DNA of 64,000 bases from a virus. A program made the translations under genes and the position numbers. A model generated the notes under the pieces. It had not been told where the DNA came from. It ran no database searches and saw only the letters and a program-made list of their open reading frames with translations. The stretch is taken from positions 1-64,000 of the IMG/VR virus record IMGVR_UViG_3300036760_000069; one strand, 5' to 3'. Of the stretch, positions 1 to 28,530 are shown in pieces. Every line of letters starts with the position of its first letter. Position 1 is the first letter of the stretch.

Positions 1-219
1 CCGACAAGAGGCAGTTAAGTCCTGCCGTCGTGACACTTTTGGCTTGGGCATTCATCACGGCCTTGACGCGCACACCTGTGGGCACCGTCAAGACTCGCGT
101 GACCGCCGCCGTCCCCGGGTTCGTCACATTCACGTCAAGGATGGCTACGTCCCAGGTAAAGTCGTCGCCCACCTGCGAGAACTTCACCCACTGGGCCGAG
201 CCGTTGGTCAGCCCAGCGC
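1..219. repeat. Direct repeat copy A (tail-tip domain DNA)
   Basis: Bases 1-219 match 59599-59817 almost perfectly; by eye I see two substitutions before about base 215, then divergence. Both copies sit on the same strand inside the C-terminal part of fibre genes. The left window edge falls inside the repeat, so its true left extent cannot be seen here. Confidence 0.9.
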
Positions 220-1321
220 CGATCCGCCTTTTGTAATCGTAGTTCGTGGGCATCGTCGGGGCCGAGGCACTGGTACTACACAGCACATCCACCACGCTCG
301 TATCCGTCCGCTTGATGACGTAGAAGTGATACCATGTGGAGTTTGCAATGGCCCCCGTATCCAGGCACCCTGCCGCCGCACCAACTGCCCATGCCGAGGT
401 CGTCTTTGCGGTCGACGCGGCGAGGGTTAAGGTATCGACGTTGCCAGAGTCTGTGGCTTGCCCAGCGGCGACGGTGAGCGTGGCAGAGGCCCCCGCCGTA
501 CTCATCGTGAGGCCCGCGAGGTACGAACGCGGGATCTGAACGGTGCTGGTAATCGTGATCGTGCCAGCCCCAGTTGAGCAATTTACCCCAGAGGAACAGG
601 ACAGCGACCCAGCAACCGGGATATTGCCAGTGCTACCGATGGCGAGTTGCCCGTTCGTCAAGGCAAGGGACGCAAGGAGCTTGTTGGTGTCGCCATACAC
701 CAACGCTTTTGCCGTCAACCCGGAGTCCGTCAGCCCTGCAAACGTCGGCGAGGCTCCGGTGTCAATGTTCTGCGGGGTCGACAGCGTGAGCGTGCCCGCC
801 CCTGGCGTCACCGTAATCTGGTTGGTCGTGCCAGCAATCGTGCAGACCGCCGGAATGGCCCCGGTCGAGCCGCAAATCATCTGCCCGTTGGTCAGCGCGG
901 CAAAAGACACCAGTGCGCCCGTCGCGTCGATATAAGGAAGCGTCTTGATCGTCAGGCCAGGAATGATCGGGTTCGAGGGAAGCGAGAGCGCGATCGTCCC
1001 AGCCCCTAACGTGACGGTGAGTTGGTTCGCCGTGCCAGCGATCGAGCCGAGAACTGGGGCAACCCCTGTCGATCCAATCAGCAATTGACCGTTTGTCGGG
1101 GATCCAGTGGACTGCAACAAGCCCGCCGCCCCCAAGTACACCATCCCGTTGACGGTCAGGCCGGCACCGCTGATCTTGAGGCCGCCCGTGAAGGTCTTGG
1201 TGCCTGTCACGGTCTGCGCGCTCTCCAGGTTCATCTGGGTCAGCGTGACGGCCTGAGCAGGGCTGACGAACAGCCCAGCTACTAAAATCGCCGCCAGTAG
1301 TTTTTGAATAGTAGTTCGCAT
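1..1321 (-). CDS. Tail-fibre-like protein with signal peptide (3' end cut by window edge)
   Basis: The frame opens at ATG 1321 and stays open to base 1, so the C-terminus lies outside the window (about 440 residues visible). Residues 1-24 form a Sec-like signal (basic start, hydrophobic core, cleavage after PAQA). Then come three spaced copies of a motif like LTNGQLxIGSTGxxPV near residues 76-94, 143-161 and 221-239, and from about residue 266 (PRSYLAGL) a tip domain shared with the fibre at 59384-60898. The start overlaps the upstream stop by one base (TGATG). It is probably a receptor-binding or surface protein; the signal peptide is odd for a virion fibre. Function is inferred from repeats and the shared tip; the family is not named with certainty. 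Confidence 0.75.
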   Translation of the reverse strand, partial: MRTTIQKLLAAILVAGLFVSPAQAVTLTQMNLESAQTVTGTKTFTGGLKISGAGLTVNGMVYLGAAGLLQSTGSPTNGQLLIGSTGVAPVLGSIAGTANQLTVTLGAGTIALSLPSNPIIPGLTIKTLPYIDATGALVSFAALTNGQMICGSTGAIPAVCTIAGTTNQITVTPGAGTLTLSTPQNIDTGASPTFAGLTDSGLTAKALVYGDTNKLLASLALTNGQLAIGSTGNIPVAGSLSCSSGVNCSTGAGTITITSTVQIPRSYLAGLTMSTAGASATLTVAAGQATDSGNVDTLTLAASTAKTTSAWAVGAAAGCLDTGAIANSTWYHFYVIKRTDTSVVDVLCSTSASAPTMPTNYDYKRRIGAGLTNGSAQWVKFSQVGDDFTWDVAILDVNVTNPGTAAVTRVLTVPTGVRVKAVMNAQAKSVTTAGLNCLLS

Positions 1322-1764
1322 CAGCTCACTCCTGCCGATCCCAGCCCGACGGTGATGGTGACGGTGCAGCCCGCGCACCCGGTAATCGGGGCCGCCATGA
1401 GGTTATAGCCAAAGACTCGGCACTCCCAGGCTCCGCTCGTAGTAGTCGACGTCACCGAGACCGTCCGATCCGCCGCGGTAAAGCACTCCTTACTCACGAA
1501 GTTCGTCCCATCCACAGAGGTCTGAAAGGTGACGGTAAAGGCGCCTGTCCCGAACACCTGGATCGTCGCGGTCGTGGCGTTCTTGACGTTCGCCACATTG
1601 CAGGTATTGACGCCAGACGGATTGCCGGAGTCCTTGCAGAGCGCGACCGCGCCCGTGTTGCTTGTCTTCACCGAGGCCAATGTGACGGTCTGGACGGTGA
1701 CAGCCGAGGCCGGTACCGCCAGTATCAACGCGAGCGCGAGCGTCAGGAGGCTAGTTCGCCACAT
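1321..1764 (-). CDS. Small secreted beta-rich protein
   Basis: 147 residues. I chose ATG 1764, preceded by GAGGAG at seven bases; the longer upstream frame has a charged, unlikely N-terminus. Residues 1-21 are a clear signal peptide (MWRTSLLTLALALILAVPASA). The mature part is Ser/Thr/Val-rich with several cysteines (for example CKDSG, NTCN, CFTA, CRVF, CAGC), which would suit disulfides in the periplasm. The start lies 14 bases inside the end of the upstream gene, and the stop overlaps the next start. It is one of four consecutive genes with signal peptides. No family recognised. Confidence 0.7.
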   Translation of the reverse strand: MWRTSLLTLALALILAVPASAVTVQTVTLASVKTSNTGAVALCKDSGNPSGVNTCNVANVKNATTATIQVFGTGAFTVTFQTSVDGTNFVSKECFTAADRTVSVTSTTTSGAWECRVFGYNLMAAPITGCAGCTVTITVGLGSAGVS

Positions 1765-2473
1765 CGGCCGCTCCTCGATAGAGTTCCACCCAGTTCGTGC
1801 CGTCGTAGACAAAGGTGATCGCCCGGCTGAAGCCGTTCGCCGGTTGTGCCCAGGCGGCCCCGAGTTTGTAGAGGGTATCCCATGTCAGTACGCCGAGTGC
1901 CCCGCCGGCGGTATTCCGCACTAGGACCGTCAGATGTTGCCCAGTCGTGGCGGCCGTCGGATTCGCCACGGTAAACGCTGTGCCGTTGGTCGCCGTGATC
2001 CTGAAGGTGTTCCCCAGCGAGGCCGTGATCGTCACGGATGCCCCGTAGGTTGGGTTGACCAACCCCGCCACCACCGCCTTGCTCGCCGTGACGTTGGCGA
2101 CCCCCAGGCTCGTCGTGAGTGTCAGGGCGTTGAAGGTAGGGCTGGCGGTCGTCCGAATGTCCTGGATGGCGTCTAGCGTGAGTGTGCCCGCCCCTACGGT
2201 GGTCGTCAGCGAGGCCAAGGCCCCGATGGCGATGGTACTGGCAACAGGGACGGCCCCCGTCGAGCCGATCAGGAACTGCCCGTTGGTGAGTTGGACGGCT
2301 GTGAGGACTTGCGTGGTGCTGAGATAGAGGGCCGATTTCGCCGTCAATCCGGTGAATTTGGGCGTGCCGCTGATGACGGAGACGGGGCCCCCCGGGTCGA
2401 ACACATCCGCCGCCCTCGCGCTGACAGGGGCAAGGAGAAAGACCGCAAGAAGCGTGGCAAGGATCGGGCGCAT
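1751..2473 (-). CDS. Tail-fibre-like secreted protein
   Basis: 240 residues starting at ATG 2473. Residues 1-22 look like a signal peptide ending ARA-A. One copy of the motif LTNGQFLIGSTGAVPV lies near residues 62-77, the same motif that occurs three times in the neighbouring partial fibre gene. The C-terminal third (AFTVANPT, FVYDGTNWVEL) resembles the beta-sandwich ends common in phage fibres and spikes. It is probably a surface or adhesion protein. No catalytic motif is visible. Confidence 0.7.
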   Translation of the reverse strand: MRPILATLLAVFLLAPVSARAADVFDPGGPVSVISGTPKFTGLTAKSALYLSTTQVLTAVQLTNGQFLIGSTGAVPVASTIAIGALASLTTTVGAGTLTLDAIQDIRTTASPTFNALTLTTSLGVANVTASKAVVAGLVNPTYGASVTITASLGNTFRITATNGTAFTVANPTAATTGQHLTVLVRNTAGGALGVLTWDTLYKLGAAWAQPANGFSRAITFVYDGTNWVELYRGAADVAN

Positions 2474-2474
2474 T

Positions 2475-3137
2475 TTATGGTTGCTGCGTCCAGGTGGCGG
2501 AAATCCCGTAGAGGCGATAGACCCCCGTGTTTTGCATGACGGCTGTGAAATCCATGCCGACTGAGGCGTTCGCCGTGTTCATAAACGCCGGTGTCCCCAC
2601 GCCGCCGGAGGTGAGATAGGGATTGCCTTGCGTGGCCGTTGGGAGCGTGATCGTGATGGCGCCCCCGTAGGCCGCCACGGCGTTCGCCACGTTATTCGCA
2701 TAGGTTGTGGTCGAAAGGGCGTTGAAGGTGTTGCTCGTCAGCGCCGCCGTGCCGATAAAATGCGAGACGCTGAACGCGGTGAGTTTATAGCCTTTGCCGC
2801 TCGTCGTGCGGGTCGGGGCCGGCAGCTCGCACCGGATATTGTACGTCTCGGCGCCGCCCGCCGTGCGCGCCAGCGCCCAATCGTTCGACGCCACGCGGGT
2901 ATTGATGAACAGTGCATTGTCGGACCGGCAAAAGATCACCGCTGAGTAGACCCGCACAATGTCGGTCGGGGCCGTCTGCCCGCTGGCCGTCCAGGTCGTG
3001 CTGTCCGGCATCGTCACCGTGCCGGTAAAAGTCGGCGAGGCGCTGGGCGCGTTCCCGGACGGCTGGGAGATGGTTTGCGCCCACACGGGCGAGCCGGAAA
3101 GCAACATCCATAAGGCAAGGAGGCGCAGGGTCTTCAT
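2475..3137 (-). CDS. Secreted fibre-like protein
   Basis: 220 residues. The start is ATG 3137, overlapping the upstream stop as ATGA; the upstream extension is arginine/glycine-rich and looks untranslated. Residues 1-20 form a signal peptide (MKTLRLLALWMLLSGSPVWA, cut before QTISQ). The segment SPTFTGTVTMPDSTTW is typical of fibre shafts. The remainder is beta-rich and Thr/Asn-rich with two cysteines (ICRS, IRCE). No enzyme motif is seen. It lies one base pair from the next gene, so the two are probably translationally coupled. Confidence 0.7.
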   Translation of the reverse strand: MKTLRLLALWMLLSGSPVWAQTISQPSGNAPSASPTFTGTVTMPDSTTWTASGQTAPTDIVRVYSAVIFCRSDNALFINTRVASNDWALARTAGGAETYNIRCELPAPTRTTSGKGYKLTAFSVSHFIGTAALTSNTFNALSTTTYANNVANAVAAYGGAITITLPTATQGNPYLTSGGVGTPAFMNTANASVGMDFTAVMQNTGVYRLYGISATWTQQP

Positions 3138-3718
3138 CCGACCACCGCCGCAGCGGCCTTCTCCGCGAGGGCCTGCGCCTTGCCGATCAGCTCGTCCAGC
3201 TTCGTCTGTCTGGATTTGATGTCCTCGTCCATGGCGTCGAGGCGACCCTGCCGGTCCCGTTGCGTGCCGGCAAAGTCCTCCTGGGCCTGCCGTGCCTGTC
3301 GGGCGAGATCCGCGAGGGCGTTCCGGGTGGCTTCCTCGGCCTCGGCCCGTTCCTTCCCCAAGGCGTCCAGTTTGTCGTCGTGGGCGCAACAGGCCGCGCT
3401 GTGCTTCTCGTCCAGCTCCGCCTTCTTATCCTCAAGGGCCTTTTCAAGGAGGGCCTTCTCACTCTTGAGTTGTTCGTCAAGGGCCTCGATCTCGCCCTGC
3501 TTGGCATCGGCCTGCGCCTGGAGGGCGTCCACCTGCGCGCTGAGAGAAGACGCTTCGTTCCGATAGGCGACGAGACGGGCTCCCGCCTGCCCCAGTACCT
3601 TGAGAACAGTCTGCAACCGCCCCAGCGTCGAATAGAACTGGAGGAGGTCGCCGAGTTGGCGCGCCGCTTCCTCGTATTCTTGCGGGGTGATGTCTTGATC
3701 TACGATGGGGTTTGCCAT
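3134..3718 (-). CDS. Coiled-coil protein
   Basis: 194 residues, ATG 3718, with an AAGGAGAGG-type ribosome site upstream. Residues from about 55 to 185 are almost continuous charged heptads rich in Ala, Glu, Lys, Leu and Gln, predicting a long coiled coil. One unusual cluster (SAACCAHD, near residue 108) interrupts it. The N-terminal 50 residues look globular. No signal peptide. A trimerising or chaperone role for the surrounding fibre-like proteins would fit, but this is only inference. Confidence 0.7.
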   Translation of the reverse strand: MANPIVDQDITPQEYEEAARQLGDLLQFYSTLGRLQTVLKVLGQAGARLVAYRNEASSLSAQVDALQAQADAKQGEIEALDEQLKSEKALLEKALEDKKAELDEKHSAACCAHDDKLDALGKERAEAEEATRNALADLARQARQAQEDFAGTQRDRQGRLDAMDEDIKSRQTKLDELIGKAQALAEKAAAAVVG

Positions 3719-3730
3719 GGTGTCCTCTCC

Positions 3731-3841
3731 TTATCGTCCCACGCCCATTAACATTCTGAACAATACGTTCGCAGTGAAGCCGCCGCTGGACGTCTTGATC
3801 GTGCTGATCGGCTGTTCAGAGATCGAATGAAAACTCAGCAT
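3731..3841 (-). CDS. Possible 36-residue protein
   Basis: A short frame, ATG 3841 to TAA 3731, fills an otherwise empty gap between the glycine-rich gene and the coiled-coil gene. It begins MLSFHSISEQPIS and ends RMLMGVGR. It has a GGTGAGG sequence just upstream, though very close to the ATG. The composition looks protein-like and the fit into the gap is good. Function unknown; it could equally be untranslated spacer. Confidence 0.4.
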   Translation of the reverse strand: MLSFHSISEQPISTIKTSSGGFTANVLFRMLMGVGR

Positions 3842-3845
3842 CGCC

Positions 3846-4775
3846 TCACCAGCAAATAATCATCACAAGGCCCGACCCACCATCGCCGCCCCGACCGCCT
3901 GTCGTGCCCCCGCCGCCTCCCCCGCCGCCCGCGCCGTAGGCCCCGGGGCCGCCGCCGCCGCCGATTCCGGCATTGGACGCCCCGCCGCCAAGCCCGCCAA
4001 AGCTGAAGAACGGTTTCCAGAGTTGCAGCCCCCCCGAGCCGTTAAACGAGCCCGCCGCAGGCGTGGCCGGACGTTGTTCAGAGAGCCAGGAGTTTGCAAT
4101 CGACGTGCAGGCCCCACCAGCGAAATCCGCCGAGGTCGTCCCGCCGCCGCCAGAACCAGCCTGACAGAGCGTGGAGGTCACCGGAATAGTGATGGCGGTC
4201 CCATTCCCGCCCGCCACCGCGCCGCCATTCACGCCAGCCTGTCCCGCGACGAATGTCACCAGCCCCGCTCCTACTAGGGCAATATCGCCAATGGCGGCAA
4301 TGGTGCTGGCCGCGCCGCCTGTTCCAACCGCACCCGCAGTCCCTGTCGTGCCCCCGACGGAGGCGACAGAACCGGACTTGGCAATGCAGTTGGCGGTTAT
4401 GCCCCCAAAACTCGGTGCAACTGAAACAAACGACAGCACGCCAGAGCCTGCGGTGCCTCCGCCAGACCCCACCCCCTGCCCCCCCGCGCCGACCGCCACA
4501 AAGAGCATATCGGGGAGAAGAAAGAGCGGAATCGTGACGCGGCAGACGCCGGACGAACCGCCTCCGCCCCCGCCCCCTCGCGCACTTGACGCGGCACCAG
4601 TAAACCCGCCCCCTCCACCCCCACCGCCGCCAATGCAGAGGATATGGGCCATCGTCTTGCCGCGAGGCTTGAGCCACGTCTTCCAGTCCAGAAAAGATGT
4701 GGACGTGCTCGCCGCAGTGAAAATCTGCACGTCCGAGCCGCTGGTTGCCGTGGGCAGATGACTGAAATCAAGCAT
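3846..4775 (-). CDS. Glycine-rich adhesin-like protein
   Basis: 309 residues from ATG 4775, eight bases inside the end of the upstream gene. The N-terminal ~50 residues are ordinary (FLDWKTWLKPRGKTMAHIL), followed by runs of glycine (GGGGGGGGG near residue 52, and again near 68 and 270-295) separated by hydrophobic segments. Proteins built this way occur as phage distal adhesins; the poly-Gly blocks of phage S16 gp38 form a polyglycine-II sandwich that presents binding loops. That structural comparison is inference. Its position among fibre-like genes supports a host-recognition role. Confidence 0.65.
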   Translation of the reverse strand: MLDFSHLPTATSGSDVQIFTAASTSTSFLDWKTWLKPRGKTMAHILCIGGGGGGGGGFTGAASSARGGGGGGGSSGVCRVTIPLFLLPDMLFVAVGAGGQGVGSGGGTAGSGVLSFVSVAPSFGGITANCIAKSGSVASVGGTTGTAGAVGTGGAASTIAAIGDIALVGAGLVTFVAGQAGVNGGAVAGGNGTAITIPVTSTLCQAGSGGGGTTSADFAGGACTSIANSWLSEQRPATPAAGSFNGSGGLQLWKPFFSFGGLGGGASNAGIGGGGGPGAYGAGGGGGGGGTTGGRGGDGGSGLVMIICW

Positions 4776-5843: not shown

Positions 5844-5890
5844 TATTTACCCCCCCCCGCGCACTGGCTCAGAATGCGGATCGTCGCCAT
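5843..5890 (-). CDS. Possible 15-codon ORF coupled to the next gene
   Basis: ATG 5890 is preceded by AAGGAG at a good distance, reads MATIRILSQCAGGGK, and stops in TAATG shared with the next start. Codons 11-14 lie on a run of nine G (bases 5850-5858). It could be a leader peptide that couples translation to the 120-residue protein, or simply a ribosome-loading site. Too short to assign. Confidence 0.35.
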   Translation of the reverse strand: MATIRILSQCAGGGK

Positions 5891-5951
5891 CAGGAACTCC
5901 TTTTACACCCGCCCGCCCCGGGCCGCTCTTGAATCGCGCCCGTGTCCCGTC

Positions 5952-8444: not shown

Positions 8445-9377
8445 TTAGATGATGACTGTCACCAGCGCCCCACCCGAACCGGCCCCGACGGTGCCCTTGA
8501 AGTTGTTCGTGATATTGGCGATGGTATTGCCGCTCGCGTTCTTGACCGGGCCGGTGACGAGCGAGTTGAACAGGTTCTCCTCGATCTCGATGCCCGCCAC
8601 CTGATCCGCGCCCGTCAGGTCGATACCGACCGTCAAGGCCGTGCCGTAGCTGTGGATGCGGTTGTTGCCGATCCGCAACCCCAGACAGCCGGCGCCCGTC
8701 TGAATCCCCACGGCCCAGGAGCCCGCCGTGTTGTAGATGAAGTTCCCCTCGATCCGGCTGTGCAGGAGGGCTGTGGCGTCAATCGCCGGCCCCTGCGCGC
8801 CGTCCGCATTGAACTCGCACCCCGTAATCAGCACACCCGTCGCGGCCCCCGTCGCCACGATCCCCTTGGTGGCGATGTTCACCACCGGGGTATTCATGTC
8901 GAAGTGGCACCCTTTGACCCGGAGGTTGATGGCGGCGACCGTGAAGTCAAGAAATGACTTGGCCGTAACCGGAACGCACGTCACGCCCACCATGGTAAAG
9001 TCCGTCCCGGTGACGGTGATGCCCTTGTTGGCGGCGAAGGCCGTCAGCACCGCGCTCGGCTTGGCAGCGTCCATCCCGTAGAACGCCTCCGGGCCGTAGA
9101 TCTTCACATTGTTGGCTGTGACCGCCAAGGCCGCCGTCAGCGTATGCGCGCCAGGGAGTAGGACGATGCAATCGCCTCTCCCGCTCACTACATCGGCATA
9201 GGCGGCGTTGACATCGTTGTAGACGTACTTGTGCCGGCCCCGGACATACGCATTGTGCGTCGAGGCGGATCCGGGCAGGACGAACAGCGGCGTGCCGGGG
9301 ATCAGGTTCCCCATGCCGTTTGCTTTTTCGTCGGTGAACTGTTGCCAGGCGTATTTGTCGCGGATTGTGAGACTCAT
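8445..9377 (-). CDS. Right-handed beta-helix protein
   Basis: 310 residues, ATG 9377 with AAGGAGAT upstream. From about residue 85 the sequence shows repeating short hydrophobic turns typical of pectate-lyase-like parallel beta-helices (VKIYGPEAF, GITVTGTDFTMVGV, INLRVKGCHFDMN, GVLITGCEFNADG, SRIEGNFIYN, LRIGNNRIHSYG, IEIEENLFNS). Such folds serve as tailspikes or capsid-surface decorations, some with polysaccharide lyase activity; no catalytic residues can be assigned by eye. Its place close behind the capsid gene favours a surface role. Confidence 0.75.
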   Translation of the reverse strand: MSLTIRDKYAWQQFTDEKANGMGNLIPGTPLFVLPGSASTHNAYVRGRHKYVYNDVNAAYADVVSGRGDCIVLLPGAHTLTAALAVTANNVKIYGPEAFYGMDAAKPSAVLTAFAANKGITVTGTDFTMVGVTCVPVTAKSFLDFTVAAINLRVKGCHFDMNTPVVNIATKGIVATGAATGVLITGCEFNADGAQGPAIDATALLHSRIEGNFIYNTAGSWAVGIQTGAGCLGLRIGNNRIHSYGTALTVGIDLTGADQVAGIEIEENLFNSLVTGPVKNASGNTIANITNNFKGTVGAGSGGALVTVII

Positions 9378-10186: not shown

Positions 10187-11131
10187 TTAGCCGGTGACGT
10201 AGATGACCCGCGCCTCCCCGTCGTTGGCCGTGTTCCAGGTCTCGCCGAACGCGAGCATCCCGAACCATCCCACTGACCGCTGGAGGCCGAAATTCCCAGG
10301 AATGGCCGCCCGCAGTTCCGGCGACAGCACTTCCGCCATCAGCACCGGCTCCTCGCCGAACACCAGCACCTCGCCCAGCACCGAGCCTGTGCCCTTGGTG
10401 TTGGAGAGGGCATTGCTGTGCGTGATCTCGATCAAGCGGATATGCTCGATCATCCCCGCTTCGCCCCGGTAGAACGCCATGTCCGGCTGAATGTACCGGC
10501 GCCAGTCCACGAACTCTGGATCGTCCTTCACCCCACGCAACGCCTTCGTGGCCGCCAGCCCGATCCAGTCGTCCCCTTCGTAGGGCTCGGCGTGGATCGT
10601 CGACGCCAGATAGTCCCGGAGCTGCTTACAGTGATAGACGTTGAAGTTCGAGGTCGCCGTCCCGCTGGTCGCGTTCGTGGTGAACGTCCCCGTGGTCGTC
10701 GACGTGGGCGCGTACCGGATCTGACAGCCCTTGAAGGTCGTGAACACCGTCGTATCCAGGACCAGCTTCATCGTCTTGATGAGCGACCGCTGGATGAAGT
10801 CCTTCGGATCGAACAGCGACAGGAGTTCCGTCTCCTCGTCGTACTCGACCGCCCGCCCGTACTTCGACACCGTGATCGTGGTCGTCGAGAGGGTCAGGCT
10901 GTCCACCGGGACTTTCTGGTTCCGGCCGATGACGGCCGAGGTCGGCTCGGAAATGTTCCGAACACGCGGAATGGTAACGGTATCGCCCTGGTGCCGGCCA
11001 TAGCCGTCCACGGGCTTGACGAATTGCAGGCCCTTCGTCTCGGCGATGCTCGCGTAGCGGAGCTTCTTCGAGAGCGCCCGGTTCCGCATCGTCCCGGATG
11101 GCATGTCCGGAATCCATTGCAATGAACTCAT
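10187..11131 (-). CDS. Major capsid protein
   Basis: 314 residues, ATG 11131 with an AGGAGG ribosome site. The order of elements fits an HK97-fold coat protein of the N4 gp56/P22-like type: N-terminal segment with RNRALSKKLRYASIAETKG, a beta-rich domain (GDTVTIPRVRNISE, ITVSKYGRAVEYDEETEL), a spine-helix region (DFIQRSLIKTMKLVLDTTVF), and a C-terminal part ending GWFGMLAFGETWN. A scaffold-like gene lies just upstream, as usual for coat proteins, and the portal and terminase lie further upstream. I cannot tell the subfamily with certainty. It is probably the most strongly expressed gene here, and hairpins flank the downstream cistrons. Confidence 0.85.
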   Translation of the reverse strand: MSSLQWIPDMPSGTMRNRALSKKLRYASIAETKGLQFVKPVDGYGRHQGDTVTIPRVRNISEPTSAVIGRNQKVPVDSLTLSTTTITVSKYGRAVEYDEETELLSLFDPKDFIQRSLIKTMKLVLDTTVFTTFKGCQIRYAPTSTTTGTFTTNATSGTATSNFNVYHCKQLRDYLASTIHAEPYEGDDWIGLAATKALRGVKDDPEFVDWRRYIQPDMAFYRGEAGMIEHIRLIEITHSNALSNTKGTGSVLGEVLVFGEEPVLMAEVLSPELRAAIPGNFGLQRSVGWFGMLAFGETWNTANDGEARVIYVTG

Positions 11132-11181
11132 GGTCGTTCCTCCTGTTGCCTACCCGTCCCCGCTCCGCGCCGACCTGAACT

Positions 11182-12132
11182 TTAGCCTCGGTGCGAGGCG
11201 ATGGTGTAGAGCGCACTGGACTTCGCAACTTGGTTCTTGCGAAGGGCTCTCATCCCATCAGCCATCGTTTCCGGGGCGTCGTCCTTGCCGCCTTTGGGGC
11301 TGGAACGTGGGCCTCGCCCGCCGCGATCGAGCTGTCCGCCCGCTTCGCGTTGGTGGGCCGCGTTGTCCTCGGTTGTCTTGTTTGTCATCTTCAGCACACG
11401 ATTAGCGATCCGAATGTACTGCTCGCCGGGCGGCACCACATCGAACCACTTGGGCTTGTCCGCGATGAGCGCGTTGACCACCCGCTCGAACAGCGGATAC
11501 GTCTTCTCGGGATCCAGCCCCACTTCCTCCAGTGCGATCTTGGCGTTGTCAATCGCATCCTTCTCAGCGGCTGTCTGTTGCTGGGACGCCGCCTGTTGCT
11601 GGGCCTGCCGCCCTTCCACCACCTGCACAGCGGTCTGGGTCGCCGCCTTCTGCAAGTCCAACAACTTCTTGGCGATGATCTTGTAGACGCCCTTCGTCCG
11701 CACATCCTGATCGTCGCTGGTGATCTTTGTCGCTTCGTTGAAGATCTCGTCTGCGAGCTTCTCCGCCGCCTCGTCAGGTGTGATCTGTGTGGCGGCCTTC
11801 AGCGCGGCCTCACGGGCATCCTCAACCGCCCGCAACCGTCCCACTTCCTTCAGGAGCTGATTGCGTTCGGTGGCGATCTCGTCCCGATCCTTCGCCTTCT
11901 GCTTGTAGCGTTCGACCCGCTTGGCAGCGTCCTCGCTCAAGCCCTCGATGTCGCCCTCCGGCGTCTCGTCATCCGTATGCTCGGTGCCGGTGTCGTCTTT
12001 GTCTTTTTTGTCGGTGCCGCCGCTGAGATCCAGCCCTTCCAGGTCAAGATCGTCTTCCTCGGCGGTCACAGCGCACAGGCCCCGGCCCTGGAATCCAGGG
12101 GAATCGGCGCCCATCAGAAAGGTATGTCGCAT
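11182..12132 (-). CDS. Scaffold-like protein
   Basis: 316 residues, ATG 12132 with GAGGAGG upstream. It is highly charged: an acidic N-terminal region (DDLDLEGLDLSGG, TDDETPEGDIEG), a long Glu/Lys/Ala/Gln helical middle (KRVERYKQKAKDRDEI, RQAQQQAASQQQTAAEKD) and a flexible basic C-terminus. This composition, about 300 residues, and position immediately before the major capsid gene are the hallmarks of internal scaffolding proteins that direct procapsid assembly and then leave or are cleaved. No protease motif visible. Confidence 0.75.
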   Translation of the reverse strand: MRHTFLMGADSPGFQGRGLCAVTAEEDDLDLEGLDLSGGTDKKDKDDTGTEHTDDETPEGDIEGLSEDAAKRVERYKQKAKDRDEIATERNQLLKEVGRLRAVEDAREAALKAATQITPDEAAEKLADEIFNEATKITSDDQDVRTKGVYKIIAKKLLDLQKAATQTAVQVVEGRQAQQQAASQQQTAAEKDAIDNAKIALEEVGLDPEKTYPLFERVVNALIADKPKWFDVVPPGEQYIRIANRVLKMTNKTTEDNAAHQREAGGQLDRGGRGPRSSPKGGKDDAPETMADGMRALRKNQVAKSSALYTIASHRG

Positions 12133-12202
12133 CCTGTCGTCCTCCTCTCCGTCAACGAAGCGGCGCTCGGCCGGGTTGCGGAGTCTGGTTCGCCCGTTTG
12201 TC

Positions 12203-12397
12203 TTAGTCCCCGCCCCCGTGCTTCATGGGGCTCGTCCAGAACGAATCCCCGAGCGGGTGCGACCCCATGGACACATACCCCTGCTCGGCCGTCCCGCCAC
12301 CGCCATTGCCGTGCCCCGGACCCGCCGGTGCTTCGGCCTGCTGATTGAGTGCCGGGCCGTCCTGCATGAGGTCGCCCGGTGCCGATGACTTCTCCAT
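12203..12397 (-). CDS. Small Gly/Pro-rich head-module protein
   Basis: 64 residues from ATG 12397, preceded by AAGGAGGG. Begins MEKSSAPGDLMQDGPAL; rich in Gly, Pro and Ala, apparently disordered, ending SPMKHGGGD. It lies just after the terminator-like hairpin at 12420-12462 and before the scaffold gene, so it is the first gene of the capsid transcription segment. Function unknown. Confidence 0.55.
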   Translation of the reverse strand: MEKSSAPGDLMQDGPALNQQAEAPAGPGHGNGGGGTAEQGYVSMGSHPLGDSFWTSPMKHGGGD

Positions 12398-12419
12398 GAT
12401 CGTGCCCTCCTTGTCCCAT

Positions 12420-12462
12420 AAAAAAATGGCGTGAGCGGGGAACCTTCCCTACTCACGCCATT
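12420..12462 (-). terminator. Rho-independent terminator or attenuator
   Basis: Minus-strand stem of 11 perfect pairs (AATGGCGTGAG with CTCACGCCATT), extended by GGGAA/TTCCC inside, then seven T (12426-12420). It has the textbook shape of an intrinsic terminator. It lies between the portal-side genes and the capsid operon, just downstream of a possible promoter (12499-12526), so it may act as an attenuator in the capsid leader. Confidence 0.8.
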
Positions 12463-12498
12463 CCGTGGAACTGCGTCCCGGATTCTGCGTCAGATTCT

Positions 12499-12526
12499 GC
12501 TATAGCACAAACCAGCCCAAAAGCAA
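12499..12526 (-). promoter_or_regulatory. Possible extended -10 promoter for the capsid operon
   Basis: On the minus strand TTGCTT (12526-12521), a 16-base spacer and TATAGC (12504-12499) with TGC directly before the -10. It precedes the terminator-like hairpin and the 64-residue gene. The surrounding 60 bases are visibly AT-rich for this genome. Judged by eye only. Confidence 0.35.
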
Positions 12527-12529
12527 AGG

Positions 12530-12706
12530 CTATTTTTTAGACGGGTCGCGGATTTCGTCCTCACCCGACACTTTGACCTTGACTGACGCCAGCCCGCCCC
12601 CAAAGTAATTCAACCGCACCTGTAAGCACGCCTCCCCGTACTGGACTTCAGGGATGGCCTCCAAGGCCCCCAAGATCTCGTTTTTGGCCCAGCTCGGGAG
12701 TGGCAT
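12530..12706 (-). CDS. Small head-module protein
   Basis: 58 residues from ATG 12706, starting MPLPSWAKNEILGALEAI and ending DEIRDPSKK. A single helix plus a beta hairpin (CLQVRLNYFGGGLASVKVKV) can be guessed. Only a weak GGTAAG ribosome site; translation may depend on the upstream gene, whose stop lies two bases away. Last gene before the capsid promoter/terminator region. No family recognised. Confidence 0.55.
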   Translation of the reverse strand: MPLPSWAKNEILGALEAIPEVQYGEACLQVRLNYFGGGLASVKVKVSGEDEIRDPSKK

Positions 12707-12707
12707 C

Positions 12708-12899
12708 TTACCGATTGACCTTCGGGTAGACCGTATCCTGGTTCGGGTTCGAGCTGGCATCCCGCTCGCCCGTCGGAGACTCCAGCAACGGGGCATCCCC
12801 CAGCCGCTTGTAGCCCTGCTTCACATCTTTGTCGCTGAACGCCGTGCGCCCGTCCAGGCCGCCCTTGTTCGTGTTCGTCGGTTCGCCGTGCTTATTCAT
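12708..12899 (-). CDS. Small hydrophilic protein
   Basis: 63 residues from ATG 12899, eight bases inside the end of the previous gene. Begins MNKHGEPTNTNKGGLDG and is Asn/Asp/Lys-rich with no hydrophobic core, so probably disordered. Located between the portal and scaffold genes. Function unknown. Confidence 0.55.
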   Translation of the reverse strand: MNKHGEPTNTNKGGLDGRTAFSDKDVKQGYKRLGDAPLLESPTGERDASSNPNQDTVYPKVNR

Positions 12900-13203
12900 C
12901 GTCGGTGCCCTCCTGTTCTGCCGCCAACCGCACCGCCTGCTTTGTCGCAAAGCCGATGGCGGTCTTGATGAGGGCATGATCGCTCTCAAGGTGTTCGATC
13001 AGCCCCAGTACCCGTTGCCGCTTCTGCCGGATCGTCTCATCGTCGAGGTCGGGGTTGAGATAGTCCGCCAAGGCCAGCTCGATCCGCGCCGTCACGCTGG
13101 CAATGATCTGCTTACCGGCGTCCGTCTTGTACGCCATCGCCAGCTTCGAGCCGGCGGCGATCTGCGCGTTCTGTCTGGCATCGGTCTTCCCGTTCTGGCT
13201 CAT
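12892..13203 (-). CDS. Hypothetical head-module protein
   Basis: 103 residues from ATG 13203 with AAAAGGAG upstream; the longer frame is an arginine-rich artefact. Almost wholly alpha-helical (KQIIASVTARIELALADYLN, RQKRQRVLGLIEHLESDHA), ending in an acidic tail. It directly follows the portal gene and could be a small connector or scaffold-assisting protein; this is inferred from position. Confidence 0.6.
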   Translation of the reverse strand: MSQNGKTDARQNAQIAAGSKLAMAYKTDAGKQIIASVTARIELALADYLNPDLDDETIRQKRQRVLGLIEHLESDHALIKTAIGFATKQAVRLAAEQEGTDDE

Positions 13204-13213
13204 AGGTCTCCTT

Positions 13214-15235
13214 TTACTGCCGTTGTGGAATCGCCGACGCAACCGGCACGGTTCTCCCGCCCGCAACCATCGGCGGGGGAGCGGGCTGAGCCGTCGGACC
13301 CGGCACGCCTTCTGGGGTGAACTCCGGCGGTGCGCCACCCTTGCCGACATGCCCATGCGTCTGCACATGAGCGTCCGTGCCCGCCTTCATCGCGTTCTCA
13401 ATGGCGGCGGAGACGGCTTGCTGGTTCTGTTCCTGTTGCTGTTGCTGAGCGTCCTGGACGATCTCCTGCTCGTCCTTGATCCCCTCCTCGACGTTCATCT
13501 TGTCGGCGATCTTGGTCAGAATGACATACGGCTTGATGTACGCGGCAAACATCTCCTCCTTGCCCAGCATCGCCAGCTCCTTCCACTTCTGGAGTTCGTC
13601 GGCGGTCTTGAACAGGCGCGAGACCCCATGAATGTCGATGTCGCAATCCAGCTCCATGTCCTGTTGCCGCTGTTGCCAGGTATAGGCCCCGCCGGCACTC
13701 TGCACCATCTGGAGGTAGAACGGATCTTGCCCCATGTACTCCGCCAGACTCGGCTCAGTGAACTGATCCTGAAAGGTGGTCAGCACCTCCTTGATGGCCC
13801 AGAGGAGGTTCGTGCCGCCCTGCTCCACATCCTTCCCGATTGAGTCGAACACGCCCAAGCTCTGTTGCATCTTGAGCTGGATCTCGGTCGCGGTGATGTC
13901 CTTGCGGGACCCCTGGTCACCCTTAAGGAGCTCCGTCACCATCGACCCATTTTCCCAGAGGTTGGTGACGAGGCCCCACATAAATTGCACATCCTGAATA
14001 TTCGAGTCGCCCTTGAGGATGGGCCGCACGGCGGGCTTGCCCTCCGCCATGCGCTTCAGGATCCACGCCTTCAGCGGGTAGATTTCAAGGTCACTGGGGT
14101 CGTCCAGGTTGTTCGGGTCGATCTCGAACATATTGTTGATGCGCCAGTTCTCGTTGTCGATGAACAGGTTCAACAGCGCGTTCTGGAATTTCCACACCGC
14201 CATCACGCCCTCGAACAGGCCGTAGCCATGGAAGCGCAGGACGTGCGGGATCGGGCTGAAGTCCACCCACGGCCAGCGCATCCGCTTGAACGGACAGGGC
14301 CGCGCCTTGCGGATGACCACCCCGTTGCAGGTCGTGAAGGTGCCGCTGGGCATGATAACATCGCCGTCCTCGTCGAGGATCGTGCCCCAGAACTCGCGTA
14401 CGAGGACGGATTTGCGGAAGCGGTTCCGGTGCAGAGTCTGCCCCTTCCGCCGGCGCTCCTGCTCCTTGTCCTCCTGGTTGTAGCCAGCCCCGTCCTTCTG
14501 GGACTTGCCGATCTTCACCTGGTCGATGTTCTGGTAGTACCCCTGCGTCTCCAGTTCCTTGAGCTGGTAGAAGTCCACCCACTCCTCATGGATGTTGTAG
14601 AGGCCCGACCAGGCCAACCGTGGTTGCCGGTCTGGATCCGGGTAGGTCTTCCACGGTTCGATCAGCGGGAGGCGCAGGCGGTAGATGCCGTTCTCGTCCG
14701 GCTTGAACATGACCTTGATGGCGGAACTCTGCCCTGTGGTAAAGCCCATCTCGGCGGCGTCGGCAAAAGTGTACGGCAGGAACGAGTCCTTGCGGCTCGT
14801 CCAGAACTTCAGGTTCTTCTCCCAGAAGGCGGCCTTGAGCTTCGTCTCCTCGTTGTCGGGGTCGGTAGCGTTGAGGCCGAAGTAGTCCGGCCGGTCCATC
14901 AGGCCCTTCCGCACAAGGGACTTGGCCTGCATGACGGTGGTGAATGGGGTGTTGAGAACGATCTTACTCTGCCAGTCTTCCTTGTCGGCCATCTCGGCCA
15001 TCTGGGTTTCGTGAGCCGCCCAGAGGGTATCATCCTTGGCCCGGCGGTCTTCGTCTGCCTCGTAGCTCTCCTTGACACACTCCTGCTGGTACACATCGAG
15101 GTGACCGTCGTTTAGGTCATCGACATCCTCCTGCATGTCGGCCGTGACGTCCGCCAACTCCTCCGGGCTGAGTTGGGCGAGCTGCGCCATCAGCTCGTCG
15201 ATCTTGCCCTTCGCTGGGGAGACGCCGAGGGCCAT
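13214..15235 (-). CDS. Portal protein
   Basis: 673 residues, ATG 15235. Podovirus-type portals form the dodecameric DNA entry vertex. Supporting features: length, position between TerL and the scaffold/coat genes, and conserved-looking portal segments such as RFHGYGLFEGVMAVWKFQNA, MFEIDPNNLDDPSDLEIYPL and DITATEIQLKMQQSLG, the last resembling the central stem/wing helices. The C-terminal 120 residues are Gln-rich (QQQQQEQNQQAV) then Pro/Gly-rich, a tail seen in long P22-type portals. The N-terminus carries an acidic helical segment (MAQLAQLSPEELADVTADMQ). I do not see frameshifts. Confidence 0.88.
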   Translation of the reverse strand: MALGVSPAKGKIDELMAQLAQLSPEELADVTADMQEDVDDLNDGHLDVYQQECVKESYEADEDRRAKDDTLWAAHETQMAEMADKEDWQSKIVLNTPFTTVMQAKSLVRKGLMDRPDYFGLNATDPDNEETKLKAAFWEKNLKFWTSRKDSFLPYTFADAAEMGFTTGQSSAIKVMFKPDENGIYRLRLPLIEPWKTYPDPDRQPRLAWSGLYNIHEEWVDFYQLKELETQGYYQNIDQVKIGKSQKDGAGYNQEDKEQERRRKGQTLHRNRFRKSVLVREFWGTILDEDGDVIMPSGTFTTCNGVVIRKARPCPFKRMRWPWVDFSPIPHVLRFHGYGLFEGVMAVWKFQNALLNLFIDNENWRINNMFEIDPNNLDDPSDLEIYPLKAWILKRMAEGKPAVRPILKGDSNIQDVQFMWGLVTNLWENGSMVTELLKGDQGSRKDITATEIQLKMQQSLGVFDSIGKDVEQGGTNLLWAIKEVLTTFQDQFTEPSLAEYMGQDPFYLQMVQSAGGAYTWQQRQQDMELDCDIDIHGVSRLFKTADELQKWKELAMLGKEEMFAAYIKPYVILTKIADKMNVEEGIKDEQEIVQDAQQQQQEQNQQAVSAAIENAMKAGTDAHVQTHGHVGKGGAPPEFTPEGVPGPTAQPAPPPMVAGGRTVPVASAIPQRQ

Positions 15236-18319: not shown

Positions 18320-19765
18320 TCACGATACTGAATAACCTTTGCTGCGTTGCTTCTCCCGATCCTTGCTCCGCGGCGTCGGCTTCTCCTGCGGCCGGAACAG
18401 GACGCGCCCCAGAACGTGCGTGATGGAATCGCCGACGTGCGAACTCGGCTGCTTCTTATCCGGCCCGTCCTTCAGCACTTCCCCCATGGCGTTCACCTTG
18501 TAGCTGTACCCGCCGGCAAAGGCTGCGTCGACTCGGTTGAACGGCTCGCCCTCCGTCACATGGGGCGAGACCTGCACCATCGGAATCCCGCCCGGCATCT
18601 GCGTGAAGATGAACTTCAGCGCGTTCTTCCGCGTCTGCCAGTCCGAGACACCAGGATGATACACCGTTTTCAGTAAGTCCTCAATAATTCTCGCCCCCGA
18701 GTAGTCGCTGTTACTCTGCTCGCGTGACTCCAGTGCCGGGTCGCCGCCGTCATACCACTTCTTGCACCGGGCATACCGGGGCTGGGCGAGGAGCGGCTGG
18801 AGCTTGGTGGTAATCATCTGGTGCATCCCGCCGCCAGGGAGCATGACGGAATCGAGAAAGTGCAGACGGCCCGACGGCGTGAACTGCGCCAGCACGCAGG
18901 TCGGATTCAGCCCGCCATCATACATCCGCAGGATCTGTTGCTCCGGCAATGGATCAATCCGGTGCTTGGCGAGGTGAAACTGTTGCTGGTACTCCTCGGT
19001 GATCCGCACCCCGTCATAGACGTCCGAAAACTCACCCTCATCGTACCGGGCGGCGAGATCGGGGCGGTTGCGGAAGGCCTCGACACGGGCGTCCCGGTCG
19101 GTCTGGGAGATGTGCGGGTTCTCGCCTTTGCGGATCCGGTACACCTCGGCGCCGGTCGCGGGCCGCTCGATCGCCCACTTGTACGTCCAGTGCTTGCGCT
19201 CGGCCGGGTTCATGGCGACCTGGAGACGCTTAGGCCCCGTGCCGCCGGCGGCCACCCGGCGCATCCCCATCAGGTAGACCTCCTCGCGCATCCCCTGGTT
19301 GCCGGTGTGAATGATCGGCGCGGGTTCTTCGAGGTGGATGATCTGGTACTCGGCCCCTTGGATGCGGTTCAGTGAATCTGGGGCGTCCATGCCGAACAGG
19401 TCGATGTCCATGCCGTCAGCGTAGAGCTTGTGGTAGTCGTCGTGGAACTCACAGATGTCCCCGAACGGGGACCGCTTGATCGAGTCCACGGTGATGCGCT
19501 TGAGGTTGATGTGCGTGTCCCGGATGAAGGCCCCGCGCATGTCGAACGGGTCGTCCTTCCGCCACTTGCCGGCAGGGTCGTCGTTCTGGTGGACCGGCAG
19601 GTACGGGCGTACCTCTTGGAGAAAGGCAAAGAAGGCGGCGATCGAGGCGAAGGTCTTGCCCTCGCGCTCCGGGCCAATGATCCACGGGTAGCGGGACTTC
19701 GACAGCACGAACTCAGCCTGGGTCAGCGTCAGCTCGAGGAGCAGGTCAACAGGGGTCACGCTCAC
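18320..19765 (-). CDS. terL: Terminase large subunit
   Basis: 481 residues from GTG 19765, which overlaps the upstream stop as GTGA and has AAGGAG 12 bases before. The packaging ATPase shows a P-loop GPEREGKT (31-38; a deviant Walker A) and Walker B IIHLEE (about 142-147). The C-terminal nuclease domain shows a first acidic site in MYDGGLNPTC (Asp283) and a last one in SHVGDSITHVL (near 445). It works with the portal to pump and cut DNA. Length is normal. It lies next to the tRNA pair and a few genes from TerS. Confidence 0.9.
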   Translation of the reverse strand: MSVTPVDLLLELTLTQAEFVLSKSRYPWIIGPEREGKTFASIAAFFAFLQEVRPYLPVHQNDDPAGKWRKDDPFDMRGAFIRDTHINLKRITVDSIKRSPFGDICEFHDDYHKLYADGMDIDLFGMDAPDSLNRIQGAEYQIIHLEEPAPIIHTGNQGMREEVYLMGMRRVAAGGTGPKRLQVAMNPAERKHWTYKWAIERPATGAEVYRIRKGENPHISQTDRDARVEAFRNRPDLAARYDEGEFSDVYDGVRITEEYQQQFHLAKHRIDPLPEQQILRMYDGGLNPTCVLAQFTPSGRLHFLDSVMLPGGGMHQMITTKLQPLLAQPRYARCKKWYDGGDPALESREQSNSDYSGARIIEDLLKTVYHPGVSDWQTRKNALKFIFTQMPGGIPMVQVSPHVTEGEPFNRVDAAFAGGYSYKVNAMGEVLKDGPDKKQPSSHVGDSITHVLGRVLFRPQEKPTPRSKDREKQRSKGYSVS

Positions 19766-19872
19766 AGTTCGAGGGGACTCCTTGGGCGGTTGTAAGCGTC
19801 CATGATCGCCTTGTCCATCATGCGCGTCATGGCCTTGGAGTCCCACGCCTTGGCGAAGACCTCCTCGAACAT
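19762..19872 (-). CDS. Possible small protein before TerL
   Basis: A protein-like frame precedes TerL and ends GTGA-overlapped with it. From ATG 19872 it gives 36 residues (MFEEVFAKAWDSKAMTRMMD...). The frame is open further upstream through PPLTATEIHACAA and into the tRNA-Thr, so a non-ATG start between 19873 and 19934 is possible. Helical; function unknown. Confidence 0.45.
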   Translation of the reverse strand: MFEEVFAKAWDSKAMTRMMDKAIMDAYNRPRSPLEL

Positions 19873-19934
19873 GGCGGCACAGGCATGGATCTCGGTCGCG
19901 GTGAGCGGCGGCAGGATCGGCGACTCGTAGCTGA

Positions 19935-20010
19935 TGGAGCTGGCGGCAGGAGTCGAACCCGCGGCCTGAGCTTTACGAAAGCCCTGCTCTACTGTCTGAG
20001 CTACGCCAGC
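19935..20010 (-). tRNA. tRNA-Thr (anticodon CGT)
   Basis: 76 bases. Acceptor stem GCTGGCG/CGCCAGC with seven pairs, D-arm GCTC/GAGC, anticodon stem GGGCT/AGCTC with loop TTCGTAA (anticodon CGT, codon ACG), T-arm GCGGG/CCTGC around TTCGACT, and an encoded 3' CCA. The clover-leaf is complete, so the tRNA is probably functional and supports translation of ACG codons. Confidence 0.9.
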
Positions 20011-20063
20011 CCCCAGAAAGACGAACCCCAGCAGGCCCTTGAGAATGTTGCGCCGAGACAAGT

Positions 20064-27124: not shown

Positions 27125-28530
27125 CAGTTGCCTTTCCGCACGAACAACGGCGCAACGGCCGTGATGCGGGCGTCGGCCAGCGCGATGTAGTCTGGGTTCA
27201 GTTCGATGCCGACGAACTCACGGCCGAGGCGGAGGGCGACCGCCCCAACAGTTCCACTGCCCGTAAAAGGATCGAAGACCACGCAGGGCACCGGCTCGCC
27301 CGCCTTCTTGCAGGCACAGGTCGGGCGCCAGCCAGTCGTCATGGCCTGCGGGAACGCGTTATCGTGATCGTTGCCTCGCGCCCGCTTCTCTTGCCGTACC
27401 ATCGCCAGCCTGTTCGCCGTCGAGCCCTTAGGGTAGGCCGTGCCGGTTGCGCCCTTGTGCGGGATGATCTCCTTCTCGACCACCCGCGCCCACGGCGCCA
27501 TGCACTTACTACAGGCACCGCGCTCGCTGGTGCCGGCGAGGATGCACGGCTCGACCAACTTCTCAGGGAAGGTGGCGAAGTGGGCCTCTTTGAACGGCAT
27601 CGTGGGGATCGTCCAGACGGTGCGCTTGTTGCGGGTCAGCGTTGGATAAGTGTCAGCTCGATCAGGTCGATGCGTACCGACGGTCTGCCCAGGATGCACT
27701 GCTGCTCGTTTTGAGTTTTCGCGTCGAAAGTTATCTCTCGCTGATGGCTTGCTGTACGTGGTGTCGGCATGGGTGCAGGGTTCAGCGATCGCCTCTGCAT
27801 CGTAGTAGTACGTCTGGCTCTTGGTGAGCAGGAATAGGTACTCATGCGCCTTAGTTGGGCGGTCCGTCACCGACTCTGGCATGGGGTTGGGCTTGGCCCA
27901 GATAATGTCGCTCCGCAGCCACCAGCCGTCCGCTTGCAGCGCGAAGGCCACGCGCCAGGGGATGCCGACGAGGTCTTTGGACTTTAATTCCAAAAACTCT
28001 TTTTTCTCGCGGATGGACGCCCCCGATTTTTTTGCAGCGTCGTTCTTCCCGCCCGATGAGCCGCCCCATTTACCAGTAGAAGCATACGTATCTCCGAGGT
28101 TCAGCCAGAGCGTGCCGTCGCTGCGGAGGACGCGGCGCACGTCGCGGAAGACTTCGACGACATGCTCGACGTAGAGGTCGACCGAGGATTCTAAGCCGAG
28201 CGAGCCCGCCCACGCCCCACAAGCTGAACAGACGGCTCCATGGCGAATCTCCTGCCGCTTCCAGCCGACCCGTTTCTCTGGTGCGACCTGCTCGTCCCGT
28301 CCGTTGCGCGTATGTTGCCACCGCCGCTTATCGGTGTAGTTCGTCTCCGAGGTAGCCACCACATCCCGCCAGTCGTGTTCGCAACTTTGTGCCCCCCCCC
28401 AGACCTGCGGCGGGATCTTGTAGTCGCGTAGACCCCAATACGGCGGGCTCGTACACACCATCTGCACCGACTCCGCCGGCATCGTCGCCAGCTCCGTCAG
28501 CACATGGCCCTGGTGGAGGGTGTAGTTCAC
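27124..28530 (-). CDS. DNA methyltransferase (N4/N6 type)
   Basis: 468 residues. Motif IV TSPPYWGLRDY (27-37) marks an amino-methyltransferase working on N4-cytosine or N6-adenine; the SAM-binding FDPFTGSGT lies late (about 419-427) followed by REFVGIELNPDYI, so the order is the beta class. A cysteine cluster (CSACGAW, CSKCMAPW, CACKKAG) may bind zinc in the target-recognition part. It overlaps the cytosine methyltransferase gene by four bases, so the two act together, most likely protecting phage DNA from host restriction. Codons 44-47 contain a G9 run. Confidence 0.88.
   Translation of the reverse strand: MNYTLHQGHVLTELATMPAESVQMVCTSPPYWGLRDYKIPPQVWGGAQSCEHDWRDVVATSETNYTDKRRWQHTRNGRDEQVAPEKRVGWKRQEIRHGAVCSACGAWAGSLGLESSVDLYVEHVVEVFRDVRRVLRSDGTLWLNLGDTYASTGKWGGSSGGKNDAAKKSGASIREKKEFLELKSKDLVGIPWRVAFALQADGWWLRSDIIWAKPNPMPESVTDRPTKAHEYLFLLTKSQTYYYDAEAIAEPCTHADTTYSKPSARDNFRRENSKRAAVHPGQTVGTHRPDRADTYPTLTRNKRTVWTIPTMPFKEAHFATFPEKLVEPCILAGTSERGACSKCMAPWARVVEKEIIPHKGATGTAYPKGSTANRLAMVRQEKRARGNDHDNAFPQAMTTGWRPTCACKKAGEPVPCVVFDPFTGSGTVGAVALRLGREFVGIELNPDYIALADARITAVAPLFVRKGN
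28392..28400. repeat. Poly-G (coding strand) tract of nine in the methyltransferase gene
   Basis: Nine consecutive C on the plus strand, giving TGG GGG GGG GCA on the coding strand at codons 44-47. A one-base slip would truncate the enzyme near its N-terminus. Confidence 0.85.

Follow-up and report, generated by a model that had tools for sequence, protein, structure and literature searches.

Assembly of tailed phages is usually described as cytoplasmic, and Llp of T5 and Cor of phi80 and N15, phage proteins that reach the envelope and there act on receptors, are small exported lipoproteins of superinfection exclusion. In this study, we explored four neighbouring genes, here called D, E2, E1 and F, at the start of the IMG/VR virus record IMGVR_UViG_3300036760_000069; the window is the whole stretch of 64,000 bases analysed, bases 1-64000 of this 87,117-base record, and window base 1 is record base 1. 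The products of the four genes resemble Llp and Cor in being apparently directed to the envelope, but unlike them lack a lipobox and are composed of parts known from fibres. Overall, we suggest, with a probability of roughly 0.55, that they are exported fibre modules of a short-tailed phage acting at or after lysis, in virions or on receptors. What is new is the presence of known fibre parts in an unexpected place.

The closest described counterparts occur in two cultured phages, as gp19 of Burkholderia phage BcepC6B and orf035 of Xanthomonas phage PBR31. Like the four, these proteins combine a signal peptide, a fibre shaft and a tip known from tail fibres; unlike them, each is a single gene with another tip. 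A comparison at E 1 relates neither of them to F, E1 or E2, and D is matched only over a short piece of shaft (E 0.003). The orf035 gene lies between tailspike and holin, and gp19 between tail fibre and holins; in both phages a signal-less tailspike or fibre adjoins the signal-bearing protein. The same tip is found on tail fibres of Pectobacterium, Klebsiella and Enterobacter phages, and the three of these that were read carry no signal peptide (0/3). In the database gp19 is annotated as "tail fiber protein" and orf035 as "putative structural protein"; neither record notes export, and gp35/orf035 is not mentioned in the accessible text of the PBR31 paper, as searched by term (PMC10975493).

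Other relatives share single traits. Podovirus tail fibres share the tip of F, which occurs on gene 72 of the same record and on dozens of fibres, and P22-type tailspikes share their virion-binding N-terminus with proteins of two further phages, G002 and G003; the tail fibres and tailspikes of these classes read here have no signal peptide, and the window proteins lack their binding domain. Bcep22-like phages (BcepIL02, JC1) resemble bases 1-59598 of the record, read as a circle, in gene order, with a weak PAPS-reductase match at E 6.7e-4 and no other protein match by phmmer; their fibres, unlike the four, are without a convincing signal peptide. Of the three annotated tail fibre proteins of JC1, only gp56 appears in the accessible part of its virion mass-spectrometry table (PMC9144972). 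Phage diversity-generating retroelement proteins, in the accessible part of their description, have no detectable signal peptides (PMC6199706). A search of the open-access literature with narrow terms returned no report of signal peptides on tail fibres.

Four neighbouring predicted signal peptides

The four genes form one minus-strand run whose neighbours overlap or nearly abut. D (2475-3137, 220 amino acids (aa)) consists of a signal peptide (3078-3137), a shaft-like stretch and a domain related to proteins of two other viral loci, L008 and L009; E2 (1751-2473, 240 aa) of a signal peptide (2411-2473), a fibre shaft repeat and a C-terminal tip of about 100 aa; and E1 (1321-1764, 147 aa) of a signal peptide (1702-1764) and a short six-cysteine domain. 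F (2-1321) is incomplete, being cut by base 1 of the record, and the 440 aa seen comprise a signal peptide (1250-1321), a shaft and a receptor-tip domain from about residue 260.

Signal peptides were scored by a heuristic rule of our own for the n-, h- and c-regions, a score of 3.5 or more being a pass. The original prediction that the genes starting at 3137, 2473, 1764 and 1321 each open with a signal peptide was borne out by sequence criteria: 8 of the 102 called genes pass, and the four best scores (5.19, 5.09, 4.83 and 4.43) are those of these genes. Each has the features of a Sec signal cleaved by signal peptidase I, with a charged n-region, a hydrophobic h-region, small residues at -3 and -1 and a cut at 15-38 (4/4). 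The predicted cuts, MKTLRLLALWMLLSGSPVWA/Q in D, MRPILATLLAVFLLAPVSARA/A in E2, MWRTSLLTLALALILAVPASA/V in E1 and MRTTIQKLLAAILVAGLFVSPAQA/V in F, follow VWA, ARA, ASA and AQA in the four proteins, a c-region of A-X-A type. Because no cysteine stands at +1 (0/4), as a lipoprotein signal cleaved by signal peptidase II would have, the signals are of the signal peptidase I type. Shuffled N-termini passed in 91 of 10,200 trials; when each protein's own N-terminus was shuffled the pass rates were 6.8% (F), 18.7% (E1), 7.3% (E2) and 1.1% (D), so that composition alone is least excluded for E1. By chance alone the top four scores would fall on four neighbours with a probability of about 2e-5, and a run of four would arise among 8 passing genes of 102 with one of about 0.0016. 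The signal-bearing starts of F and E1 are preceded by strong ribosome-binding sites, and those of D and E2 look coupled to the preceding gene; the E2 start at 2473 was set by hand, the gene caller's pick being 2404.

Fibre parts, a cysteine pair and recurrence

The description of the four proteins as fibre-like holds for F and E2, is plausible for D and finds no support for E1. F and E2 have a shaft repeat in common (51% identity over 82 aa), and each carries a tip shared with annotated or canonically placed tail fibres. Of the 28 viral loci related to E2, 26 were reached through the C-terminal tip, and E2 weakly matches the tail fiber family phrog_3904 (E 0.0087); a scan of genome contigs with E2 gave three loci in metagenome-assembled genomes, with no useful host. 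The relatives of D, at 34% identity in 2 of 13 candidate stretches, are encoded in L008 and L009 directly behind the gene for the major head protein and have no signal peptide; the match is thus to a protein of the head-tail gene block and not to a known tip. Neither D nor E2 has a relative among 50,697 phage records. For E1, with its six cysteines, the IMG/VR search found no relative, and it has no recognised fibre tip.

Gene 72 (59384-60898, minus strand) encodes a tail fibre without a signal peptide; its N-terminus is of the podovirus tail-fibre type (phrog_1640, E 1e-23), and its C-terminal part is 72% identical to the F tip over 207 aa. Across codons 310-375 of the tip the two genes differ with a synonymous divergence (dS) of 0.99 against a nonsynonymous divergence (dN) of 0.19, and therefore the tip has been kept functional; the last 65 codons are nearly identical, with one synonymous and one other change, which points to a recent exchange. 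Related tips were found at 50 viral loci in IMG/VR, several of them re-found from an earlier set of seven in which none had a signal peptide. When these 50 and three genome loci were scanned for signals, five were flagged (L056, L057, L068, L071 and L106). The L106 call proved false, its start lying 302 residues into the frame without a ribosome-binding site. The two nearest IMG/VR relatives of the F tip, L056 (71%) and L057 (62%), are both signal-bearing, as are L068 and L071, whose tips are identical to each other. The gene at L056 has a good ribosome-binding site, and its product consists of a signal peptide, a domain 45% identical to the PBR31 tailspike N-terminus and then the tip.

Forty distinct F-type tips were aligned (43 rows, less three duplicates; 16 further loci, being re-finds, near-copies or fragments, were left out), and 36 of them sit on proteins without a signal peptide. 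Cysteines within 3 columns of both the C319 and C348 sites of F were found in three of the four signal-bearing tips (F, L056 and L068) and in none of the 36 signal-less ones (Fisher p 4e-4, the rows not being independent); when F and L056 are collapsed to one entry, and a group of closely similar signal-less tips likewise, the figures are 2/3 against 0/29 (p 0.006). Such a pair is what would be expected of a tip folding in the periplasm, and may thus be a sign of an oxidising compartment.

Signal-bearing fibre-like genes recur elsewhere. G001, which has contractile-tail-like genes by eye, was located through the single signal-bearing locus among the 28 related to E2, and carries a run of signal-bearing fibre-like genes after baseplate-like genes. 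A signal-bearing spike comes directly after genes resembling those of ejection proteins both in G002, of 19.7 kb, and in G003, of 41 kb; G003 is a complete circle, as 126 bases of both its ends match. In the G002 spike the signal peptide stands ahead of a domain (residues 16-137) that shares 45% identity with the N-terminal part of the PBR31 tailspike, a part which the PBR31 authors, in the accessible text of their paper, take to be apparently virion-binding (PMC10975493); the G003 spike, also with a signal peptide, is 50% identical to the G002 spike over the whole protein. Four neighbouring genes of G003 are signal-bearing (the spike and proteins of 115, 325 and 93 aa, the signal of the 325-aa protein having been called by eye where our rule missed it), followed by genes that look lysis-like by eye, and no signal-less fibre was seen in this complete genome. 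Three signal-bearing fibre-like genes in L054 and two in L052/L053 likewise stand at a fibre or fibre/lysis position. The occurrences in G001, G003, L054, L052/L053 and the cultured phages are unrelated in sequence or nearly so. Adjoining the exported fibre-like genes of G001 is a signal-bearing protein of 429 aa (L049:1037-2326), without a Pfam match, whose H, D and GDSG motifs we take to recall a trypsin-like protease.

Roles after export and rival explanations

This recurrence in unrelated phages and the cysteine pair support export, and we regard it as very probable that the proteins leave the cytoplasm. From the recurrence it would seem that some phages deliberately put fibre proteins there. 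We infer that the four are late, virion-linked genes of a short-tailed phage with a diderm (Gram-negative-type) host, whose Sec pathway would move the small fibre modules across the inner membrane, with signal peptidase I cleaving off the N-terminus. Disulphides could then form, at least in F and perhaps in E1, and the modules would gather in the periplasm until freed at lysis. At the cell surface they might join progeny virions outside the cytoplasm, or they might occupy receptors on the dying cell and on its debris, which would save progeny from loss and keep later phages out. We give these two outcomes about equal weight: G002 and G003 favour joining the virion, and the lack of a binding domain in the window proteins, together with the separate signal-less spike in PBR31 and BcepC6B, favours free occupation of receptors.

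Several observations weigh against exported fibre modules. Our rule also gives passing scores to BcepIL02 gp62 (3.83) and JC1 gp59 (3.54), both taken as false, and 27 of the 28 E2-related loci have no signal peptide. L057 lacks the cysteine pair though it is signal-bearing, and the mature parts of E2, of the 315-aa G001 protein and of the 226-aa L054 protein contain no cysteine at all. As regards virion joining in this phage, F, E1, E2 and D show no match to a virion-binding PHROG or Pfam family, an absence that is weak evidence. AlphaFold models of F (mean predicted local distance difference test (pLDDT) score 33.5, 6-sequence alignment) and D (50.1, 3 sequences) are too poor for geometry.

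A first alternative, possible but in our judgement on the unlikely side, is that the proteins are decoys or maskers only, never entering virions and binding receptors on the infected cell or on debris, in exclusion and progeny protection, much like a soluble version of T5 Llp. None of F, E1, E2 and D has a recognised virion-binding domain, and PBR31 and BcepC6B keep a signal-less tailspike or fibre beside the signal-bearing protein, as such a role would have it. JC1 indicates, in the accessible part of its virion data, that fibre-cassette proteins can be absent from virions (PMC9144972); yet the JC1 fibres have no convincing signal peptide, and the precedent is thus one of virion absence, not of export. 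Nor does this alternative fit G003, where a complete circle shows no other fibre and the virion would be left without one. The original prediction named as possible roles, besides receptor masking and superinfection exclusion, decoys that carry the phage's own receptor-binding tip. Its export part is strengthened by recurrence and the cysteine pair; its own-tip part is left weak. Only gene 72 repeats, without a signal peptide, the tip of a signal-bearing protein from its own record, namely that of F; this pair probably spans two phages, and six other records, several of which were only partly examined, gave no further pair.

A second alternative, which we hold just as tentatively, is periplasmic fibre assembly, in which the fibre that the virion carries would be built outside the cytoplasm and attached at or after lysis. 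It is known that P22 tailspikes add to heads in vitro. The spikes of G002 and G003, with a signal peptide ahead of a tailspike-type virion-binding domain, suggest that the exported fibre and the fibre of the virion may be one and the same, and the absence of any visible signal-less fibre from G003 agrees with this. A search with the PBR31-tailspike-type N-terminal domain, however, matched 33 phage records, of which 12 were fetched and 10 read in frame (PAE2 was out of frame, and the twelfth had no annotated gene there), and none of the 10 database proteins has a signal peptide; the window proteins, moreover, do not have this domain. A more specific combination, in which Sec-exported receptor-binding fibres are oxidised in the periplasm and attach at or after lysis, the last assembly step thus being extracytoplasmic and the surplus masking receptors, is a shade less probable still than either of these alternatives.

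It is doubtful, by contrast with exported fibre modules, that the proteins stay inside, either because the hydrophobic N-terminus is a virion or membrane anchor or because the starts are wrong and translation begins after the signal: cleavage is backed by sequence heuristics only and the gene caller's E2 start falls after the signal, but strong ribosome-binding sites precede the signal-bearing starts of F and E1, and all four neighbours have the charged n-region, the h-region and the A-X-A-type c-region. Least probable of all is that they are host-surface adhesins of a lysogen (lysogenic conversion), helping the bacterium and not the phage to attach, for which the integrases in the PBR31 and BcepC6B records might speak but against which the genes lie inside late virion or fibre-lysis runs and are not set apart.

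If a recurrent class of exported fibres is real, it would imply either an extracytoplasmic assembly step or an unnoticed masking of receptors with fibre parts, and some of the proteins annotated as "tail fiber" may be ones that stay out of the virion altogether. The question can be tested now, because two cultured phages, BcepC6B and PBR31, carry such a gene.

Record structure and neighbouring genes

The 87,117-base record holds two sets of phage head genes, the first with head protein and portal at 10187-15235 and a weakly matched large terminase at 18320-19765, the second with head protein, portal and terminase between record positions 77931 and 84266. Bases 1-115 repeat 59599-59713 exactly (115 nucleotides), and bases 27845-27971 are an exact 127-nucleotide repeat of the last 127 bases (86991-87117), both being likely assembly breaks; this is the pattern one would expect if a k=127 assembly graph had been broken up by repeats. 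Because of the duplicate head genes and these exact end repeats of internal sequence, the record probably joins two co-occurring short-tailed phages into a chimera. This would place F in one phage and gene 72 in the other, and F probably continues elsewhere, its end lying past the break at the record start. An assembly artefact was rejected as the origin of the cluster for D, E2, E1 and most of F, since these form one uninterrupted run with overlapping stops and starts; the end of F is uncertain.

Bases 1-59598 probably represent one phage, as judged by gene order, duplicate head genes and end repeats and not by tail-gene sequence; read as a circle, they run through terminase, portal, head, fibre cassette, PAPS reductase and a 4615-aa gene. 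The major head protein of the phage that probably owns the four genes (10187-11131, minus strand, phrog_1357) is 23% identical to that of Vibrio phage D65. When the record's genes were compared with profiles for portal, head, adaptor and closure proteins of other phages, nothing matched; single-sequence searches picked up the head protein of D65 and the homologue of D from L008 and no others, and the portal and the 8445-9377 protein had no relative when used as IMG/VR queries. Immediately before the four genes, in the same minus-strand run (3134-4775), are a coiled-coil-like gene (3134-3718) and a Gly-rich fibre-like gene (3846-4775), both without a signal peptide.

The 8445-9377 protein is paralogous to that of record positions 76114-77049 (39% over 309 aa), and each lies near the head protein gene of its presumed phage. 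A stretch of 41 nucleotides outside the fibre genes, 97.6% identical between the two presumed phages (5853-5893 and record 73222-73262), reflects either a regulatory site in common or a recent exchange. Imperfect direct repeats of 74-92% identity lie between tail genes at record 70777-71037. The 4615-aa open frame (35547-49394) occupies the position of the DarB-like giant protein of Bcep22-like phages. Finally, a 99-aa protein at 19762-20061 (minus strand, TTG start) begins with MSRRNILKGLLGFVFLGAG, presumably a twin-arginine (Tat) signal and unusual for a phage gene.

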